Positions 27,910 through 41,169 of a DNA stretch of 64,000 nt are shown here, piece after piece. The notes under the pieces were generated by a model. It searched no databases. It saw only the letters and a list, made by a program, of their open reading frames with translations, and was not told the origin of the DNA. The DNA is from Mycolicibacterium holsaticum DSM 44478 = JCM 12374 (GTDB lineage Bacteria > Actinomycetota > Actinomycetes > Mycobacteriales > Mycobacteriaceae). The DNA is taken from positions 3,596,001-3,660,000 of the forward strand of contig NZ_CP080998.1 of NCBI RefSeq assembly GCF_019645835.1, written 5' to 3'. Numbering within the stretch: the stretch's first letter is position 1; the number at the start of each line of letters is the position of its first letter. The position numbers and the translations under genes are program-made.

Positions 27910-28383
27910 TCACTGAAAGTTGCACGGAATCGGAAGGCCCAACGTCTTGATGCCGTTGCACAGGGACTTGCTCGCCAGCTTCCACCGGCCGTCGATGCGC
28001 CGCCATTCGGCGGTCACCTGGACCGTCGGGGCGCCCTGCCGGTTGGCGTTGATGACGGCGGTGTGACGGTCGGCCTCGTGTGTCTCCGGGCCGGTCACCA
28101 CGCTCGATCCGCGCGGCGGGCGAAAGAAGCCGATGCGGTAGACCATCTTGGGCACCACCACGGCGCGGTCACCGCCCTCGAGTTGGGCGGCCTTCACCCA
28201 GTCCGGCGCCGGGGTGGCCACCAGCAGCCGGATCTGCGCGTCGAGTTCGGACAGCGACGGCACCTCGGAACTGATCGCAAAATCCTGGTCGAACCCAGGT
28301 TGAGCGTGCGCGACGGGCGCCACCGCTGCCAGGACCGTCACGGCGGCGATCGCCGTCGCCGCTGCGATGCGCAGAACGTTCAA
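27910..28383 (-). CDS. Secreted Mtb12/CFP2-like small protein
   Basis: 157 aa. A Sec signal peptide (hydrophobic core AAATAIAAVTVLAAVAPVAH) is cleaved probably after AHA, near residue 27. The mature domain resembles the low-molecular-weight antigen Mtb12/CFP2 (Rv2376c) family: a helix with LSELDAQIRLLVATP, an LEGG turn, a beta core, and a W-containing motif RRIDGRWKLASKSLC. The two cysteines near the C terminus could form a disulphide. It starts with TTG 28383, the first gene of the operon with the ABC exporter and methyltransferase. A candidate IdeR box lies 59 bp upstream. Confidence 0.72.
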   Translation of the reverse strand: MNVLRIAAATAIAAVTVLAAVAPVAHAQPGFDQDFAISSEVPSLSELDAQIRLLVATPAPDWVKAAQLEGGDRAVVVPKMVYRIGFFRPPRGSSVVTGPETHEADRHTAVINANRQGAPTVQVTAEWRRIDGRWKLASKSLCNGIKTLGLPIPCNFQ

Positions 28384-28553: not shown

Positions 28554-30950
28554 TTGCGCAGCACGGTCGGTGTCGCCGCTGTTCGTACCGCGTCGGTGAT
28601 CGCGCTGCTCATGCTCGGCTACCTCGGGGCTTTGGCGTTGGTCCCGCAGCTCAGAGACCGCGCACCGGTGCCGGTGCAGTGGTTCGGGAGCCCCGGGTCT
28701 GCCCGGACGATCGCGATCGTGGTGGCGGTTCTGGTGTTGCTCGGTGCGCTCCTCGTCCGTTCGCAGGGGGTGCGGCGCCCGGGGGCTCCCGTGGGGATCG
28801 TGGCCGGACTGGCGCTGATCAGCGCCGTGCTCGGGCTGGCGTCCTACTGGGACTGCCACGACGACGAGCATCCGCGCTTCTTTCGGCCCCTGATGTTCAC
28901 CGCATCGGTGGTCAAGGGCGGCACGGGCGATCAATCGCTGGGTGGCCAGACATGCCCGTCGCCTACCCCGGTGGCGCTGGAGATCGCGCGGCTCTCGGCG
29001 CTGGCAGCCATCTTCCTGAGTGTCGTCGGCGTGGCGGCAGCGCTGTTCAGGTCGCGATCCGACCGGCTGCGCGGGTATTTCGCCCGGTCGGTCACCGCGG
29101 TGGTGGACGTCGACGATGACACGCTGAGCATGGTCAGCGCGATCGCCCGGACGGTGGACAGGCGCAGCACGCTGGTGCTGATCACCAGCAGCCTCGACCA
29201 TCCCTGTGTGCCCGAGGCGCGCAACCACGGCGCACGGGTCATTGCGGTGGACTTCGACCGGCCGAACACCCTGCGGGCGTTGCCCGTGTGGCGCAAGCTC
29301 GACCGGCTGTACCTGCTCTCGGCAGACCCGTCGAGTAATCTGTTGCGGCTGAAGACCATCGCGGATCGGCTGGCTGAGGTCAGCCGAAAACAGCGTCTGC
29401 CGTTGATCGTTCGCATCGATGACCCGTGGCAGGCCGAGTCCTGGCGGGCAATGCATTTCGGTGGCTCTGACACCCGGTGGGCCGCCGATGCCGTCGGCAA
29501 GTACGAGGTAACCGCTCGTCGGCTGCTGGACCGGATCATCTCGACCGACGGCGCGGGGCGGATCTTGATCAACGGTACCTCTCCGCTCACGCTGGCGTTG
29601 TGCTCGAACATGGCGCAGCGCCAGTTGGAGCGAGACTATTACGCCGCCCAGGACGACAAGCCGTTGCCCCGCCTGGTCCTCATCGCTGACAACGCCGAGG
29701 AATACCAGCAGGATTTCGCGCTGTCGCGGCGACGGTTGGGCTTGTCGGCACGCAGTATGCGGGTCGAGGCGGTGGCCGAGACCGCATCGGTGCCGCTGCT
29801 GGCGTCGTTGCTCGCCGACGACGACGTGGACGGCACCGCAGTGGTTTTCGTGGACCGGGACAGCTCCACCGCCTCGTCGGTCGACTCGACGACCGGCACC
29901 CGGTTGGCCGCCCGGTTTCCCACCACACCGATCTATGCGTGGGACGCGACCGCCCGGGTCACCGAAGACCGGCTTTCGTTGGTCGGCAAGTTACGGACCT
30001 ACCGCCTGAGCATGGATCTGCCGGAAGGTCAGGCACAAGACGCCTGGGAACGCGCCGCTCGGCTGATCCACGACCGCTACGCCGCCGAGGCCGGCCATCA
30101 CAACGCCGCCAGCCGTCCGTGGGCCGAGCTCGACGAGTTCTATCGCGGATCCAATCGCCGTCAGGTCCGCAATGCCCTGTGGATGGTCGAGAAGATCGGC
30201 GGTCACACGTGGAACGCAGGGAACGCCACGGCCGATGACATGGAAACGCCCAACCTTCGCGGGTTACCACCACTTGAGCAGCTGCGGCTGTTGGAGTTTG
30301 AGCGCGACAAGGCGATCGCGATGGCTCGCGCCGAACACGAGGACTGGTGCCGCTTCTACCGTGCCGCGGGCTGGCGCTACGGCCCGCAGCGTGACGATGC
30401 CCACAAAATCCACGACAAACTGGTGGATTGGGCGAGCATCGAAGCGGACCCGGACCTGATGAAGGCGGCGCTCGGCAGCCTCGCGGCCACCCTGTCGAGG
30501 CTTCGGGAGCTGGGTTATCGGTCCCGTCCGGCCCGAAACCAACATGTGTGGCGGCGTTTTCGCCGCACGGGTCACGTCGTGGCCGAACAGCGCGATACCG
30601 CGTGGACCTGGACGACGGGTTCCGGCGAAACCATGCGGGCCGAGGCGGGCGATTGGGCCGTGTGCGACGTCGACGGTGGCGATTGGTGGTCGGTGCGTGA
30701 CGACATCTTCCGCGACACCTATCAGCACATCGAGGGCAACCGTTGGCAGCGCCGCGGCATGGTACGGGCGAGGCCTGCCGAGGCCGGCGAAACGGTCGAC
30801 ACTCTCGAGGGGTCTGCCCGCGCCGCGGACGGTGACTGGGTGGTGCGGGGCGAGCGGGGCGAACAGTGGGTGGTGCCCGGCGAGCAGTTCACCAGGCGAT
30901 ATGACGGACCCCTCACCGAATCACAAGTCGGCGTGGAATTCTCGATCTGA
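28554..30950 (+). CDS. Membrane protein with TrkA_N-like and RyR domains
   Basis: 798 aa. Four hydrophobic helices (about 11-31, 51-68, 78-98, 146-165) are followed by a cytosolic part. Two Rossmann-like segments follow, about 178-300 (TAVVDVDDDTLSMVSAIART) and 334-470 (GRILINGTSPLTLALCSNMA), resembling TrkA_N ligand-binding modules. An RyR repeat lies at about 575-630 (AEHEDWCRFYRAAGWRYG, then HDKLVDW). Near the C terminus two PGDYG-like units read AGDWAVCDVDGGDWWSV and DGDWVVRGERGEQWVV. TTG 28554 follows GGGAGG at 5 bp. RyR modules in bacteria are linked by comparative genomics to nucleotide-signal systems. The function is unknown; it may sense a nucleotide ligand. Confidence 0.8.
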   Translation: MRSTVGVAAVRTASVIALLMLGYLGALALVPQLRDRAPVPVQWFGSPGSARTIAIVVAVLVLLGALLVRSQGVRRPGAPVGIVAGLALISAVLGLASYWDCHDDEHPRFFRPLMFTASVVKGGTGDQSLGGQTCPSPTPVALEIARLSALAAIFLSVVGVAAALFRSRSDRLRGYFARSVTAVVDVDDDTLSMVSAIARTVDRRSTLVLITSSLDHPCVPEARNHGARVIAVDFDRPNTLRALPVWRKLDRLYLLSADPSSNLLRLKTIADRLAEVSRKQRLPLIVRIDDPWQAESWRAMHFGGSDTRWAADAVGKYEVTARRLLDRIISTDGAGRILINGTSPLTLALCSNMAQRQLERDYYAAQDDKPLPRLVLIADNAEEYQQDFALSRRRLGLSARSMRVEAVAETASVPLLASLLADDDVDGTAVVFVDRDSSTASSVDSTTGTRLAARFPTTPIYAWDATARVTEDRLSLVGKLRTYRLSMDLPEGQAQDAWERAARLIHDRYAAEAGHHNAASRPWAELDEFYRGSNRRQVRNALWMVEKIGGHTWNAGNATADDMETPNLRGLPPLEQLRLLEFERDKAIAMARAEHEDWCRFYRAAGWRYGPQRDDAHKIHDKLVDWASIEADPDLMKAALGSLAATLSRLRELGYRSRPARNQHVWRRFRRTGHVVAEQRDTAWTWTTGSGETMRAEAGDWAVCDVDGGDWWSVRDDIFRDTYQHIEGNRWQRRGMVRARPAEAGETVDTLEGSARAADGDWVVRGERGEQWVVPGEQFTRRYDGPLTESQVGVEFSI

Positions 30951-30971
30951 AGACCGACCGAAGGACCGCAC

Positions 30972-31400
30972 ATGACATCGCACCGCCGTACGTACGCAAC
31001 CATAGGAGTCGTTGCCGCCTGCGCACTGCTGGCCGTGCCGGCGCCTGCCGCGCACGCCGACGACCTGATCGGCTTCACGTCGCCGTCGGGCAACATCGGT
31101 TGCATCATGGACTCGACGCAGGTCCGGTGCGATATCCGGGAACGCGACTGGGCGCCACCGCCGCCACCCCCGGACTGCCCCCTCGACTACGGGCAGGGGC
31201 TGACACTCGACGCCGGTGCTTCACCCCTTTTCGTCTGCGCCGGTGACACCGCGCTCGCCGGCGGTGGGCCGTTGGGGTACGGCCAGTCCACCAGTGCCGG
31301 TGTGTTGCGCTGCGACAGTGCGATGTCGGGCATGACCTGCCGCGACGTCGAGACCGGCCAAGGCTTTTCGATCAGCCGTGAGGGCTACCGGTTCTTCTGA
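30972..31400 (+). CDS. Secreted DUF6636-like protein
   Basis: 142 aa. A signal peptide (core TIGVVAACALLAVPAPAAHA) is followed by a cysteine-rich mature domain: FTSPSGNIGCIMDSTQVRCD, a proline run before DCPLDYG, LFVCAGDT, LGYGQSTSAGVLRCDS and GMTCRDVETGQGFSISREGY. This cysteine pattern, with a GxGFxxS ending, fits the DUF6636 family as I remember it. It starts 21 bp after the RyR-protein gene, so it is likely in its transcript. Its stop is one base from that of the convergent TIR gene. Confidence 0.78.
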   Translation: MTSHRRTYATIGVVAACALLAVPAPAAHADDLIGFTSPSGNIGCIMDSTQVRCDIRERDWAPPPPPPDCPLDYGQGLTLDAGASPLFVCAGDTALAGGGPLGYGQSTSAGVLRCDSAMSGMTCRDVETGQGFSISREGYRFF

Positions 31401-31401
31401 T

Positions 31402-34224
31402 TCACTTCGCGCAGATCGGGTTGGCGCCATCGAGGTCGTAGCGGTCCTTTTCGGCGTCGGTCAGATCGCGCCGATGGACCGCACAGCCCTCGGCGATCCA
31501 ATCCGTCGGGTTCAGCGACCAGCGGACCAGGCGGCGGTCCGCCACCGAGGCGGTCACGGCGACATCGCGCGCGAGCGCCAGGCTTGGTGCCAGCGCGAAG
31601 CCCGATCCGGCGCCGCGGTCCACCGCCGTGAGTGGTCGGTCGGACAGCCTGGTCCGACTGGTCAGATCCCAGAAGATGATGCCGCCGTCCTCCGACACGG
31701 TGGCCAGTTCGTCGTTCCCACTGAACACGACGTCGGTCACCCGTTTGGCCACCCGCAGATCATCTCCGGTCGGCTTGCCGGTCTCGGTGTCGAGCAACCG
31801 AACCGGCCCGCTCCACAGGCTGACCGCGATGGTGTTGCCGTCGGGCGCGACCGCCAATGACCGCACCTCATCGTTCTCCAGTTTCACGGTGGTGTTCGCA
31901 CCATCAGTTAGCCGATGGATGACCAGTTCGCCGGATCCGCCGATGACCAGACGCGACCCGTCCGGGGTGAACGCCAAGCCGAATGCCAATGGCGGACCCT
32001 CGATTTGGCCCTGCTCGACGAGTTCGTTGCCGGCCAACCGCCACAGCCGTACAGGCGCAGCCTCGAACGACTGGGAGTCCGTGTTCATCCACCTCGTGGC
32101 CACCGTGACCCCGTCGGGTGAGACCGCCAGCTGACTCGCCGGCTCCCCGGGCGCAACCCGGGTGGCGGTGGCCATTTTTGCGACGGCGTCCCACACCGCG
32201 ACTTCGCCTTCGGTGGTGCCGGCAAGGACCCGGGCGCCGTCGGGAGAGAAGATCACCTGGTCCACCATGCCGTCGATCCTCACCGACGGGCCGTCGGGAT
32301 CGGGATCGGCCACATCGGTCAGCGTCAACTCGGTGGCCAGATGCGGTTGTGCGCTTCCGGATCCCGCGGGTTCGACGGTCGCGCGCACCACGACCAATCG
32401 GTCGGCTGCGGGCGAGATGGCAACTGCCACCGCATCGGTCCAGCCGTCGACGGGTCGGGCCAGGGGGCGGCGCCGGTCTTCGCCGTAGTCCAGAAGTAAA
32501 GCTCCGCCTGCGGTTCCGCCGGTGACGCCTTGGGCGGGATCGGCGGGATCCCATGCCACGGCGGTGGCGGCCTGCTCGTCGACCTTGACCGGCGGCAGCG
32601 GTGGCGAGCCGGTGAGGTGGTTCCAGTAGATGACGAACCCGTCCTCGGACACCGATGCCACCGACCCGGCTTCAGGGCCGTCGCCGGTCGAGGCGAGCCC
32701 GGTCACCGCGTCGGCGTGAAGTCCGTTGAGCCCGGCGGCGGTCGGTCTTCCGTCCGCGCCGTTCCAGAACCCCACCGTTCCGTCACTGCCGCCGGTGACG
32801 ACGGTGCCGTCGTCGACGACGGTAAGTGCGGACACCCAACTCACCGGTTCCCCGTTGGTGGAGTTGGCGACCTCCGACTGCTCCCATACGGGTCGGTCGG
32901 GTCTGGCGATGTCGAACCGTCGAATCGCACCGTCGCGCCCCGCGACGACGAGCCCACCGTCGGGCGTCCACGCGAGCGCGGTGATCGATGACAACTTCCC
33001 GGGAGCGTTCTGCACGACGGGGAACGTCGTTATCGGCGCGGAACTGTCGGCATCCCATACCAGAACGGCACCGGCGACCGTGCCGGCCGCGATCCGGCCC
33101 GTCGACGGTTGCACGGCCAGCGCGGTGACCGCGTTGCCCGGTGTTCGCACCACGGCGGGCCGCAGTGCACTGTCGAGCGTGGTGACGACGCTGCCGTCGG
33201 TGACCACCACAGCGTCGGCGCCCGCCGCGGCGGGGGCCATCGCGACCACCTCGCGGGCGAATTGGCCGTCGGCCCGGCCGATTTCGGCTCCGCTGGTGAA
33301 ACTCTGGGCTAGGACTGTGCCACCTGCCGTGCCGATCCACACTCGGTCGGCGGCATCGGACATGGCGACTGCGGTCACCGGTGCATCAACGGGGATGCGT
33401 TGTTTGAACTCCGGCAGGTTGGCGACGGCGGTGAGCAGGGCCCCCTCGGTCTGCACGCTTTGGTGCAGCCGGTAGCCGTGCGCGGCGAGCAGGAAGGCGA
33501 GGTCGGGTCGCTCGAGTTCGGTCCTGCTCTGCGCCGCCAGCCGCTGCGCTTCGGCCTGGACCCGGCGTTGCTCGGCCTGATTCGCGTTGTAGACCGCGAT
33601 TCCGGCGCCTGCGACCGCGGCGACGGTCAACACGGCCAACGCCGAGACGGCCGACCAGGCGATGCGCTTGGTGCGACGGTGCTGCCGGACGTCCTCACCC
33701 TCGATCTCGTCTTTGGTGCGGCCGTGCAGTGGTGCGGCCACCTCCGCGACCGCATTGCGAAATCGGCTGTTGCGCAGGTCGAGTTGGTCCTCTTCGTGTG
33801 CCCAGCGCAGATCCAGGTGGCGGGGCTCGTCGGTGAACACCCCCCGCAACGCGGGCGGCACCGCGTCGGAGTCTTCGGTGAAGTCGCCCTTCTCCGGATC
33901 CCACTCCCAGTGGCCGTCGGTGACGACAGGCAGGATCCGGTCCACGGATCGATGCGCCTTCCAGTGCTCGATCTCTCGGTTCACCCACACCGATGCGGCG
34001 GCCTGCGGCGACGTGAGCAGTAGAAACCACTCGGCCTCATCCAGCGCCCGAACGATCGCATTCCACAGGTGCGGGTCCACGGCCAGCCCGGTCTCGTCGC
34101 GGAAGACCTCCAGCGACCGGCGCCGGTACCACGGTTTGGCCAGGCGCTGAAGCGCCCGCTGTAACTCCGGCGCCAGCCGACCGTCGGCCGCGTGCGAGTA
34201 GGAGATGAACGCGTCGTAGCGCAT
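31402..34224 (-). CDS. TIR domain protein with transmembrane helix and WD40 propeller
   Basis: 940 aa. An N-terminal TIR domain (about 1-135; RYDAFISYSHAADGRLAPEL at the start, box-2-like EVFRDETGL) carries the conserved glutamate E84 in VWVNREIEHW, the position of the NAD-cleaving residue in catalytic TIRs. A transmembrane helix follows (about 188-211), then a linker with AEAQRLAAQSRTELERPDLA. From about 280 to the end come eleven or so WD40-like blades (e.g. VTALAVQPSTGRIAAGTVAG). The propeller probably faces outside. Bacterial TIR-WD40 proteins are candidate conflict or signalling sensors. The function here is unknown; no second defence gene is recognisable. Confidence 0.85.
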   Translation of the reverse strand: MRYDAFISYSHAADGRLAPELQRALQRLAKPWYRRRSLEVFRDETGLAVDPHLWNAIVRALDEAEWFLLLTSPQAAASVWVNREIEHWKAHRSVDRILPVVTDGHWEWDPEKGDFTEDSDAVPPALRGVFTDEPRHLDLRWAHEEDQLDLRNSRFRNAVAEVAAPLHGRTKDEIEGEDVRQHRRTKRIAWSAVSALAVLTVAAVAGAGIAVYNANQAEQRRVQAEAQRLAAQSRTELERPDLAFLLAAHGYRLHQSVQTEGALLTAVANLPEFKQRIPVDAPVTAVAMSDAADRVWIGTAGGTVLAQSFTSGAEIGRADGQFAREVVAMAPAAAGADAVVVTDGSVVTTLDSALRPAVVRTPGNAVTALAVQPSTGRIAAGTVAGAVLVWDADSSAPITTFPVVQNAPGKLSSITALAWTPDGGLVVAGRDGAIRRFDIARPDRPVWEQSEVANSTNGEPVSWVSALTVVDDGTVVTGGSDGTVGFWNGADGRPTAAGLNGLHADAVTGLASTGDGPEAGSVASVSEDGFVIYWNHLTGSPPLPPVKVDEQAATAVAWDPADPAQGVTGGTAGGALLLDYGEDRRRPLARPVDGWTDAVAVAISPAADRLVVVRATVEPAGSGSAQPHLATELTLTDVADPDPDGPSVRIDGMVDQVIFSPDGARVLAGTTEGEVAVWDAVAKMATATRVAPGEPASQLAVSPDGVTVATRWMNTDSQSFEAAPVRLWRLAGNELVEQGQIEGPPLAFGLAFTPDGSRLVIGGSGELVIHRLTDGANTTVKLENDEVRSLAVAPDGNTIAVSLWSGPVRLLDTETGKPTGDDLRVAKRVTDVVFSGNDELATVSEDGGIIFWDLTSRTRLSDRPLTAVDRGAGSGFALAPSLALARDVAVTASVADRRLVRWSLNPTDWIAEGCAVHRRDLTDAEKDRYDLDGANPICAK

Positions 34225-39981: not shown

Positions 39982-41169
39982 ATGCTGCGCACAGTCGCGA
40001 TCCGCGGCTACCGGTCGCTTCGCGACATCGTGTTGCCGTTGGCCCCGCTCACCGTGGTCACCGGCGCCAACGGCACCGGCAAGTCCTCGCTGTACCGGGC
40101 GCTTCGGCTGCTGGCCGACTGTGGGCGCGGTGAGGTGATCGGATCGCTGGCCCGCGAGGGCGGCCTGGAATCGGTGCTGTGGGCGGGCCCCGAACAGCTC
40201 GGCGGTGCACGGCGGACCGGCCGCGTCGAGGGCACCACCCGCTCCGGCCCCGTCTCGCTGGAGCTCGGCTTCGCCTCCGACGATTTCGGCTACCTGGTCG
40301 ACCTCGGACTGCCCCAGATGGCCGGGCACAATTCGCTTTTCGCGCGTGACCCCGAGATCAAACGCGAGGCGGTGTTCGTCGGCCCGGTGATGCGCACCAG
40401 CTCGACACTCGTGCGCCGCACGCGCGACTACGCCGAGGCGAGCGCGGAATCAGGCCGGGGGTTCGACAAGCTGTCCCAGGCGCTCCCGCCCTACCGCAGC
40501 GTGCTCGCCGAGTACGCCCACCCCGGCACGCATCCAGAACTCGCCGCGGTACGCGATCGCCTTCGCGACTGGCGGTTCTACGACGGTTTTCGGGTGGACG
40601 CAGCCGCGCCGTCACGACAGCGTCAGGTCGGTACCCGCACGCCCGTGCTCTGCGATGACGGCAGGGACCTGGCTGCGGCAATCCAGACGATTATCGAGGC
40701 AGGCTTCGACGATCTGCAGCGCGCTGTCGCGGACGCCTTCGACGGGGCGGCGGTGTCGGTGGCCGTGCACGACGGGCTTTTCGATCTGCAGCTTCACCAG
40801 CCCGGCATGTTGCGGCCCCTGCGCGCAACCGAGTTATCCGATGGCACACTGCGATTCCTGCTGTGGGCCGCCGCGCTGTCGAGCCCGAGGCCACCGTCGC
40901 TCATGGTGCTCAACGAACCGGAGACCTCGCTGCACCCCGAACTGGTGCGCCCGTTGGCGTCGTTGATCCGTGCGGCCGCGACCACCACGCAGGTCGTCGT
41001 CGTCACGCATTCCAAAGCGCTGCTGCAGTTCCTCGATACCGTGGCCGTCGCAGACGCCGACAACGACGCGTCCGCCGTCGAGATCGGCCTGTACAAAGAC
41101 CTCGGCGAGACACGTGTCGACGGGCTGGGCCTGCTCAGCGCCCCGCGCTGGGACTGGGGCCGTCGCTAG
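39982..41169 (+). CDS. RecF/SMC-like AAA ATPase (AAA_21, COG4637 type)
   Basis: 395 aa. Walker A is VVTGANGTGKSSLYRALR near residue 30, the signature region is LSDGTLRFLLWAAAL, Walker B is LMVLNEPETSLHPELV, and VVVVTHSKALLQFL is the switch-His region. No TOPRIM nuclease domain follows, so it is not an OLD nuclease. It resembles stand-alone predicted ATPases of unknown role. It begins 3 bp after dinB2, so it shares the TetR-dinB2 transcript; a DNA-repair link is inferred. Its stop overlaps that of the convergent SDR by 4 bp. It is absent from this place in M. tuberculosis as I recall. Confidence 0.85.
   Translation: MLRTVAIRGYRSLRDIVLPLAPLTVVTGANGTGKSSLYRALRLLADCGRGEVIGSLAREGGLESVLWAGPEQLGGARRTGRVEGTTRSGPVSLELGFASDDFGYLVDLGLPQMAGHNSLFARDPEIKREAVFVGPVMRTSSTLVRRTRDYAEASAESGRGFDKLSQALPPYRSVLAEYAHPGTHPELAAVRDRLRDWRFYDGFRVDAAAPSRQRQVGTRTPVLCDDGRDLAAAIQTIIEAGFDDLQRAVADAFDGAAVSVAVHDGLFDLQLHQPGMLRPLRATELSDGTLRFLLWAAALSSPRPPSLMVLNEPETSLHPELVRPLASLIRAAATTTQVVVVTHSKALLQFLDTVAVADADNDASAVEIGLYKDLGETRVDGLGLLSAPRWDWGRR

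Follow-up and report, generated by a model that had tools for sequence, protein, structure and literature searches.

Thoeris systems combine a TIR protein that has a catalytic-type glutamate (ThsB) with a separate protein (ThsA, of the SIR2-SLOG or Macro type) which acts as receptor and effector of a signal derived from nicotinamide adenine dinucleotide (NAD). In animals, signalling from CD38 or SARM1 through cyclic ADP-ribose (cADPR) to the ryanodine receptor likewise links the maker of an NAD-derived cyclic nucleotide to a RyR-domain membrane protein. The phage RyR protein RyDEP binds and cleaves the TIR signals 2'cADPR and 3'cADPR, while among eight phage homologues tested six bind these signals and none cleaves them (PMC13232231, a preprint of May 2026). 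DUF4062, finally, is described as a TIR-like NADase domain with anti-phage activity (PMC13174449). A stretch of 64,000 nucleotides from Mycolicibacterium holsaticum DSM 44478 (NZ_CP080998.1, positions 3,596,001 to 3,660,000; here called the window), taken from a genome of 5.62 Mb in a single contig, encodes a RyR membrane protein of 798 amino acids (28554-30950, + strand) whose gene converges with that of a TIR-TM-WD40 protein of 940 amino acids (31402-34224, - strand; TM, transmembrane). The locus is probably a two-gene, Thoeris-like nucleotide-signalling system in which the TIR protein would make an ADP-ribose-type signal and the RyR protein would be its membrane receptor and effector. This proposal draws on the domains of both proteins, the conserved TIR glutamate and RyR ligand residues, the topology suggested by hydropathy, and the recurrent linkage and co-occurrence of the two genes, from which we infer the chemistry of the signal, its binding, the direction of signalling, the pore and the immune role.

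Comparison with described systems

Like Thoeris, the window has a TIR domain with a catalytic-type glutamate (Pfam TIR_2, 34.7 bits against a cut-off of 28; E84) beside a separate predicted receptor and effector of an NAD-derived signal. Unlike in Thoeris, this TIR protein is predicted to be membrane-anchored with a sensor-like C-terminal part, and the predicted receptor is a RyR domain on a TM-RCK-like protein. Neither Pfam nor PADLOC detects a SIR2-SLOG, Macro or other catalogued ThsA receptor in the pair, and because the Thoeris effector is missing by this measure the locus is not filed under Thoeris. RyDEP shares the Pfam domain of the window RyR protein, in which the histidine, tryptophan and histidine that act as ligand residues are kept. 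However, the window domain belongs to a host gene, is fused to TM and RCK-like segments, does not conserve the catalytic aspartate and is encoded beside the predicted signal maker, whereas RyDEP acts against such a signal. TM-TrkA_N-RyR proteins match the window protein by profile from its third TM segment to the RyR domain, but the window branch has lost their glycine motifs and has a cysteine pair between TM3 and TM4 as well as terminal PGDYG repeats. The Swarozyc/DUF4062 NADases are represented in that DUF4062 replaces TIR beside RyR genes at several loci; the window differs in having a canonical TIR domain, and Pfam finds no DUF4062 in the pair. With animal cADPR-RyR signalling only the RyR repeat is common by sequence, and this comparison is one of analogy only.

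NCBIfam gives nothing for the RyR protein or for the DUF6636 protein encoded between the pair, and nothing relevant for the TIR protein. The RyDEP preprint covers phage RyR proteins, and in the available part of its text bacterial ones appear only as members of a tree (PMC13232231). Words beginning with RyR are absent from the main text of PMC7159879 and PMC9503650 by term search, as are words beginning with RyR or TrkA from the main text of PMC13174449. A literature search whose scope did not extend to Yirmiya 2025 and Burroughs 2015 returned no paper in which host RyR proteins are connected to TIR genes; priority cannot be claimed because these two, the former a possibly overlapping preprint, could contain the link.

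Linkage of RyR and TIR genes in Mycobacterium

Of 148 genomes of Mycobacterium, a name used throughout for the GTDB genus in the wide sense, 60 encode the RyR protein. Sixty neighbourhoods were fetched and the window was added; a RyR-membrane gene was called in 59 of these loci, where it is of the window type in 53 and of a shorter TM-TrkA_N-RyR type in six. L106 and L112 were dropped for lack of a called RyR-family gene, though a TIR gene lies 0.5 kb from the RyR match in L106. A TIR gene stands within three genes of the RyR-membrane gene in 53 of the 59 loci, as judged with a TIR profile seeded from those same loci. The Pfam family TIR_2 (PF13676), which is independent of the locus-seeded profile, has a match no more than 10 kb from the RyR gene in 26 of 28 RyR-positive genomes; the two misses are G041 and G032, where the neighbour of the RyR gene is cut at a contig end. 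Among the exceptions to the 53, the TIR gene is seven genes away in L110, a DUF4062-STAND-TPR protein takes its place in L114, the neighbouring WD40 open reading frame (ORF) is cut by the contig end in L067, and in L119 a TIR_2 match lies in a separate frame just upstream of a STAND-WD40 ORF. A second collection, which has many genomes in common with the first, kept 80 named loci of 109, of which 78 have a called RyR gene (L216 and L234 do not and were dropped). Here TIR is within four genes of the RyR gene in 66 of 78 loci, and in three others a STAND-WD40 ORF lies close to or directly at a contig end.

The two families also occur together at the level of whole genomes. TIR_2 is present anywhere in 37 of 60 Mycobacterium genomes, namely in 28 of 28 that have the RyR protein versus nine of 32 that do not (one-sided Fisher 1.2e-9, ignoring phylogeny). 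Twelve RyR-positive genomes have exactly one TIR_2 match, which in 11 cases lies on the same contig within two genes of the RyR gene; the twelfth is G032, with its truncated neighbour. A tree of 89 RyR proteins, in which 21 of 86 forks are unresolved and several branches are long, requires at least eight changes of TIR architecture and at least 13 of architecture and orientation together, counts which leave out 16 rows without a TIR call and four with an unclassed TIR. The pairing of RyR and TIR in Mycobacterium is more than chance and no local coincidence. Co-occurrence across genomes, which a first-pass annotation of the window had named as a check on the pair, is strong and extends over many arrangements.

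Several loci deserve a description of their own. In the commonest locus type (L068:11235-13191) the RyR-TIR pair is preceded by genes for a THAP4-like heme-binding protein and for what we take to be a rhodanese-like protein. In L178 and L232 a gene resembling the short RyR-membrane type by its N-terminal sequence lies one and three genes, respectively, before the window-type RyR gene, and has no TIR neighbour. L112 (G068:C20), which holds the highest-identity relative, retains only remnants, the first 56 amino acids of the TIR gene abutting the first 283 of the RyR gene. The 3.3-Mb Mycobacterium genomes G075 and G115 have RyR fragments only, several of them interrupted by stops.

The RyR ligand pocket

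The RyR domain of the window protein (30276..30533, + strand) is recognised by Pfam PF02026 at 31.4 bits (cut-off 27.4) and matches the structure of a RyR1 chimera (6uhi, E 3e-10). RyDEP, whose sequence was translated from the phage record and aligned to host RyR domains, matches the window protein at E 2e-6 in a local sequence set. In RyDEP the ligand is contacted by H75, W78 and H100, and H75 forms the catalytic dyad of the glycosidase together with D117 (roles taken from PMC13232231). The window equivalents of the three predicted ligand residues are H595, W598 and H620, and these are present in the alignment columns of 120, 120 and 118 of 120 relatives, where counts out of 120 for window-type proteins refer to the best 120 of 709 matches and hence to fairly close kin. 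Across a wider alignment of host RyR domains the same positions are kept in 72 of 74 (H75), 72 of 74 (W78) and 57 of 74 (H100). The D117 position is occupied by lysine in the window (residue 637), which leaves the dyad incomplete with only its histidine present, and aspartate is found in only 30 of the 120 relatives. Among TM-TrkA_N-RyR proteins, compared through the best 120 of 448 matches listed, 71 could be placed by a motif search that demands the tryptophan, and 50 of these have aspartate at this position. Strong constraint therefore acts on the ligand pocket but not on the catalytic acid, which speaks for binding of a signal rather than for its cleavage.

The membrane core of the RyR protein

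The RyR gene is read here from a TTG start, and an alternative GTG start at 28596 is preferred by the gene caller. Its product begins with four TM segments predicted from hydropathy (28587..29048; residues 12-30, 50-68, 78-96 and 147-165), followed by two divergent TrkA_N/RCK-like Rossmann segments with approximate boundaries (29061..30083; residues ~170-325 and ~330-510), the RyR domain and two C-terminal PGDYG units (30546..30914; Pfam 32.2 bits, cut-off 27). The closest named relatives, at 85-88% identity, are from Mycolicibacterium pulveris, M. sp. XJ2546 and M. elephantis. Pfam gives no direct TrkA_N match, and the Rossmann segments are identified by comparison of a profile of 26 window relatives with a profile of 30 TM-TrkA_N-RyR proteins (99.8%, E 8e-29, 526 columns), in an alignment that extends from TM3 across the two Rossmann segments as far as the RyR domain. 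The TM-TrkA_N-RyR family is large (448 matches), includes members named from Chloroflexota and Actinomycetota, and goes by database names such as NAD-binding protein and voltage-gated potassium channel Kch.

The nucleotide-binding glycine motif is found in one of 120 window-type relatives in each Rossmann segment, compared with 116 of 120 listed TrkA_N-RyR proteins (first 220 residues). The loop between TM3 and TM4 contains a cysteine pair, C101 and C134 in the window protein, that is kept in all 120 listed relatives, together with a pore-helix-like stretch that is without a K+ filter. In the PDB, the window-family profile matched RyR structures and no channel; for the TrkA_N-RyR profile the matches were RyR structures plus a single TrkA-type protein, 2g1u. 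The window protein is read here as a diverged 2-TM/RCK channel-like core with a putative pore function.

The TIR partner proteins

The TIR domain of the window protein (33775..34224, - strand; codon of E84 at 33973-33975) is followed by a single TM segment (33592..33648; residues 193-211), flanked by five lysine or arginine (K/R) residues on the TIR side versus two, and by a WD40 beta-propeller region with approximate boundaries (31615..33387; 75.7 bits, cut-off 27) that would lie across the membrane from the TIR domain. The catalytic-type glutamate is kept in 128 of 131 TIR proteins from two overlapping sets of fetched Mycobacterium neighbourhoods, and in 95 of 102 distinct TIR proteins a single hydrophobic segment follows TIR. 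Three partner architectures are found in Mycobacterium: TIR-TM-PknH_C, TIR-STAND-TM-WD40 and TIR-TM-WD40. The K/R charge rule places TIR inside in nine of nine proteins of the TM-WD40 type and 23 of 24 of the STAND-WD40 type, while PknH_C, according to Pfam, takes its name from the extracellular part of a mycobacterial kinase. On account of this charge bias, and in the case of PknH_C of the family name, the C-terminal parts are probably sensors located outside the cytosol. A search of solved structures with the window TIR domain gave no useful match, and no TIR relatives were found in phages. Seven Mycobacterium loci have a patatin gene, either separating the RyR gene from the TIR-STAND-WD40 gene (as at L063:9758-10909) or immediately following the TIR-STAND-WD40 gene, and the one patatin that was examined is related to PADLOC phospholipase effectors (E 2e-42).

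Loci outside Mycobacterium

PF02026 is present in 20 of 396 actinomycetotal genomes and in 14 of 299 and 32 of 296 genomes of two classes, compared with none of 14 control genomes; a RyR search of the class of G162 found it in one of 31 genomes only. Forty further loci from the two classes sampled with 299 and 296 genomes (L246-L285), which contributed no seed to the TIR, DUF4062 or RyR profiles, have TIR in 22 cases and TIR-like DUF4062 in seven within the fetched stretch (29 of 40), and in 24 of these 29 the gene is within 1.5 kb of the RyR gene. The forty exclude G574, G923, G1026 and a small number of second places; G287, G470, G222, G264 and G317 belong to earlier sets; in L251 an antisense TIR match that overlaps the RyR ORF was excluded, and the match that was counted is weak (4e-4) and at a contig end. 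In the class of G470, TIR_2 is found in 24 of 32 RyR-positive genomes versus 35 of 260 others (one-sided Fisher 8.5e-13, ignoring phylogeny), the RyR and TIR tallies being based on slightly different draws of genomes (296 versus 292). Of the eight RyR-positive genomes taken as free of TIR_2, six of which fall outside the listed part of the TIR tally, four have DUF4062 near the RyR gene. Outside the genus, TIR or DUF4062 is found at ten of the 16 loci examined first; most of the ten are profile seeds, and nine were also scanned with Pfam or share a neighbour type that was. The seeds match by construction and are L144, L147, L149, L155, L156, L158 and the Mycobacterium TIRs for the broad TIR profile, and L114, L148, L151, L242 and L244 for the broad DUF4062 profile.

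Related genes are also found on plasmids. A Rhodococcus plasmid protein is 41% identical to the window RyR protein over 94% of its length, with RyR and PGDYG matches of its own that are below the Pfam cut-offs. Its gene is flanked by that of a DUF4062 protein and by a WD40 gene and a gene annotated as TIR, which scores 27.3 bits (cut-off 28). On an Arcobacter plasmid TrkA_N, RyR and DUF4062-TPR genes are consecutive and close to a type I restriction gene and an integrase. On Sinorhizobium plasmids a TrkA_N-RyR-like protein has as its neighbour a DUF7779/TPR protein that matches NB-ARC weakly, and there is no TIR.

RyR domains also occur in other settings. A second family consists of RelA/SpoT-TPR-SLOG(LSDAT)-RyR proteins (L157:10159-12918; P0241-P0360) with names from, among others, Actinobacteria, Gemmatimonadota and Planctomycetes, and its genes are sometimes located beside TM-TrkA_N-RyR or DUF4062 genes. 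RyR also terminates AAA-type ATPases, one with a weak bpMoxR match (L248:8346-11453) and one encoded directly beside a TIR gene (L249:5850-9098), and these proteins are a possible bridge to MoxR-type conflict systems. In L144 (8925-11451) the gene of a stand-alone RyR protein of 100 amino acids immediately follows that of a TIR protein which matches nucleoside phosphorylase (PNP) below the cut-off.

A proposed mechanism and its alternatives

It is proposed that a stimulus, perhaps a phage or an envelope event, acts on the propeller side of the TIR protein, where the beta-propeller would be the sensor of the membrane-anchored protein. The TIR domains would then cluster and turn NAD+ into an ADP-ribose-type signal, which could be 2'cADPR, 3'cADPR or a relative. 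The neighbouring four-TM, RCK-derived protein would bind the signal through its RyR domain, and a change in this protein, most simply the opening of a pore or some other disturbance of the membrane, would stop growth or harm the cell. The natural context may be phage defence or envelope stress. The first-pass annotation had already suggested a two-part sensor/effector system or an NAD-derived signalling pair; co-occurrence, linkage and the glutamate kept in 128 of 131 TIR proteins speak for the RyR and TIR parts of that suggestion, and the DUF6636 gene that it included looks incidental (its cluster is in four of 61 neighbourhoods).

Several observations weigh against the proposed system. In PADLOC-DB 2.0.0 the RyR protein has no match up to E 1, and TIR proteins match only weakly, that of the window as a weak ThsB (E 2e-4). 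A K+ selectivity filter of the TVGYG type is found in none of the 120 window-type relatives, and because the membrane part lacks such a filter the pore is only a guess. The K/R charge rule puts TIR inside in only 16 of 59 partners of the PknH_C type and in 54 of 99 partners overall. L062 and L120 outright have no TIR or DUF4062 neighbour (two of 59 loci), nine of the 78 named loci are without a TIR neighbour (two of them begin at a contig end), TIR and DUF4062 are absent from 11 of the 40 further loci (four of these being at the end of a contig or on a short one), and six of the first 16 loci outside the genus have neither as a neighbour. Neither Fisher value takes account of shared descent. 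About half of the window-type loci, moreover, occupy one fixed place with the same neighbours, which looks more like housekeeping than a mobile defence island.

This fixed place also favours a role of the same chemistry outside immunity, in mycobacterial envelope-stress or cell-wall signalling where PknH_C or WD40 would act as extracytoplasmic sensors, as do the naming of PknH_C for an extracellular kinase domain and the one TM segment that follows TIR in 95 of 102 distinct proteins. Such a role overlaps the proposed system in mechanism and is possible though somewhat doubtful, as patchy presence (60 of 148 genomes), the swapping of partners, the effector-like patatin neighbour and the type I restriction and integrase genes next to the copy on the Arcobacter plasmid all look like defence. 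It is unlikely that the RyR protein is instead a brake, comparable to the ring nucleases of type III CRISPR, that sequesters or destroys the TIR-made signal and so prevents self-poisoning. Phage RyR domains do act as sponges or glycosidases (PMC13232231), and the aspartate at the D117 position of 50 of 71 placeable TrkA_N-RyR relatives means that hydrolysis is possible in that branch, but the window branch has it in only 30 of 120 relatives and the window protein has lysine. A soluble sponge, furthermore, has no need of TM segments and an RCK-derived part.

The order of the two proteins could also be the reverse, with the RyR/RCK protein as an upstream sensor of NAD or ADP-ribose status or of ion state and TIR as an NAD+-depleting killer, and RCK domains are classic nucleotide or ion sensors. 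DUF4062 proteins, the counterparts of TIR at some loci, can act as plain NAD+-depleting NADases (PMC13174449). This order is quite improbable, however: the glycine motif is retained in one of 120 window-type relatives in either RCK segment versus 116 of 120 TrkA_N-RyR proteins, and the sensor-like modules of the TIR proteins themselves (WD40, PknH_C and STAND-WD40) fit the upstream place. The preferred reading remains the Thoeris-like pair of TIR signal maker and RyR membrane receptor. A more specific form of it, put forward tentatively, is a Toll-like circuit in which membrane-spanning TIR receptors with an outward beta-propeller or PknH_C domain might make cyclic ADP-ribose inside the cell and thereby open a RyR-gated, RCK-derived membrane channel.

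Other genes at the window locus

A gene for a secreted, cysteine-rich DUF6636 protein of 142 amino acids (30972-31400, + strand; 59.1 bits, cut-off 27) starts 21 bases behind the RyR gene. It was considered as a third component and rejected because its cluster is present in only four of 61 Mycobacterium neighbourhoods, and it is regarded as a bystander. The first-pass annotation had described it as co-directional with the RyR gene, which agrees with the coordinates (both on the + strand), and as part of the combination, which fails since it lies outside the conserved unit. The same annotation gave the membrane protein two Rossmann segments, a RyR domain and PGDYG units, of which Pfam confirms the latter two and profile-profile comparison the Rossmann segments (Pfam being negative for these), and it correctly saw a facing TIR gene on the - strand that keeps the NADase-type glutamate at residue 84. 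A scan of the locus for promoters and terminators gave 0 and 0 sites, with no excess over shuffled sequences. Upstream of the RyR gene, 27910-28383 encodes a secreted protein with a below-cut-off match to the NCBIfam model of the WKL family lipoprotein. Elsewhere in the window an AAA_21 ATPase (39982-41169) has strong PADLOC matches of the HEC-01A and AriA type; its gene adjoins that of a DNA polymerase IV-like protein and is also present in L112.

Implications

Candidate mycobacterial TIR systems are named by this analysis, in a group for which tools to study Thoeris are said to be lacking (PMC13232231). If the proposed system is correct, bacterial RyR domains would have a role on the host side, in which they receive the ADP-ribose signals that TIR proteins make and a membrane protein gives the output, and this would help to explain why a mycobacteriophage has a RyR enzyme that destroys 2'cADPR and 3'cADPR. 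Should the Toll-like circuit hold true, it would be a class of TIR immune system whose receptor is an ion channel, and a prokaryotic counterpart of signalling from cADPR to the ryanodine receptor, either as an analogue or through descent of the RyR domain. The question of whether the RyR repeat is a receptor of cADPR-type molecules would thereby become testable on small bacterial proteins.

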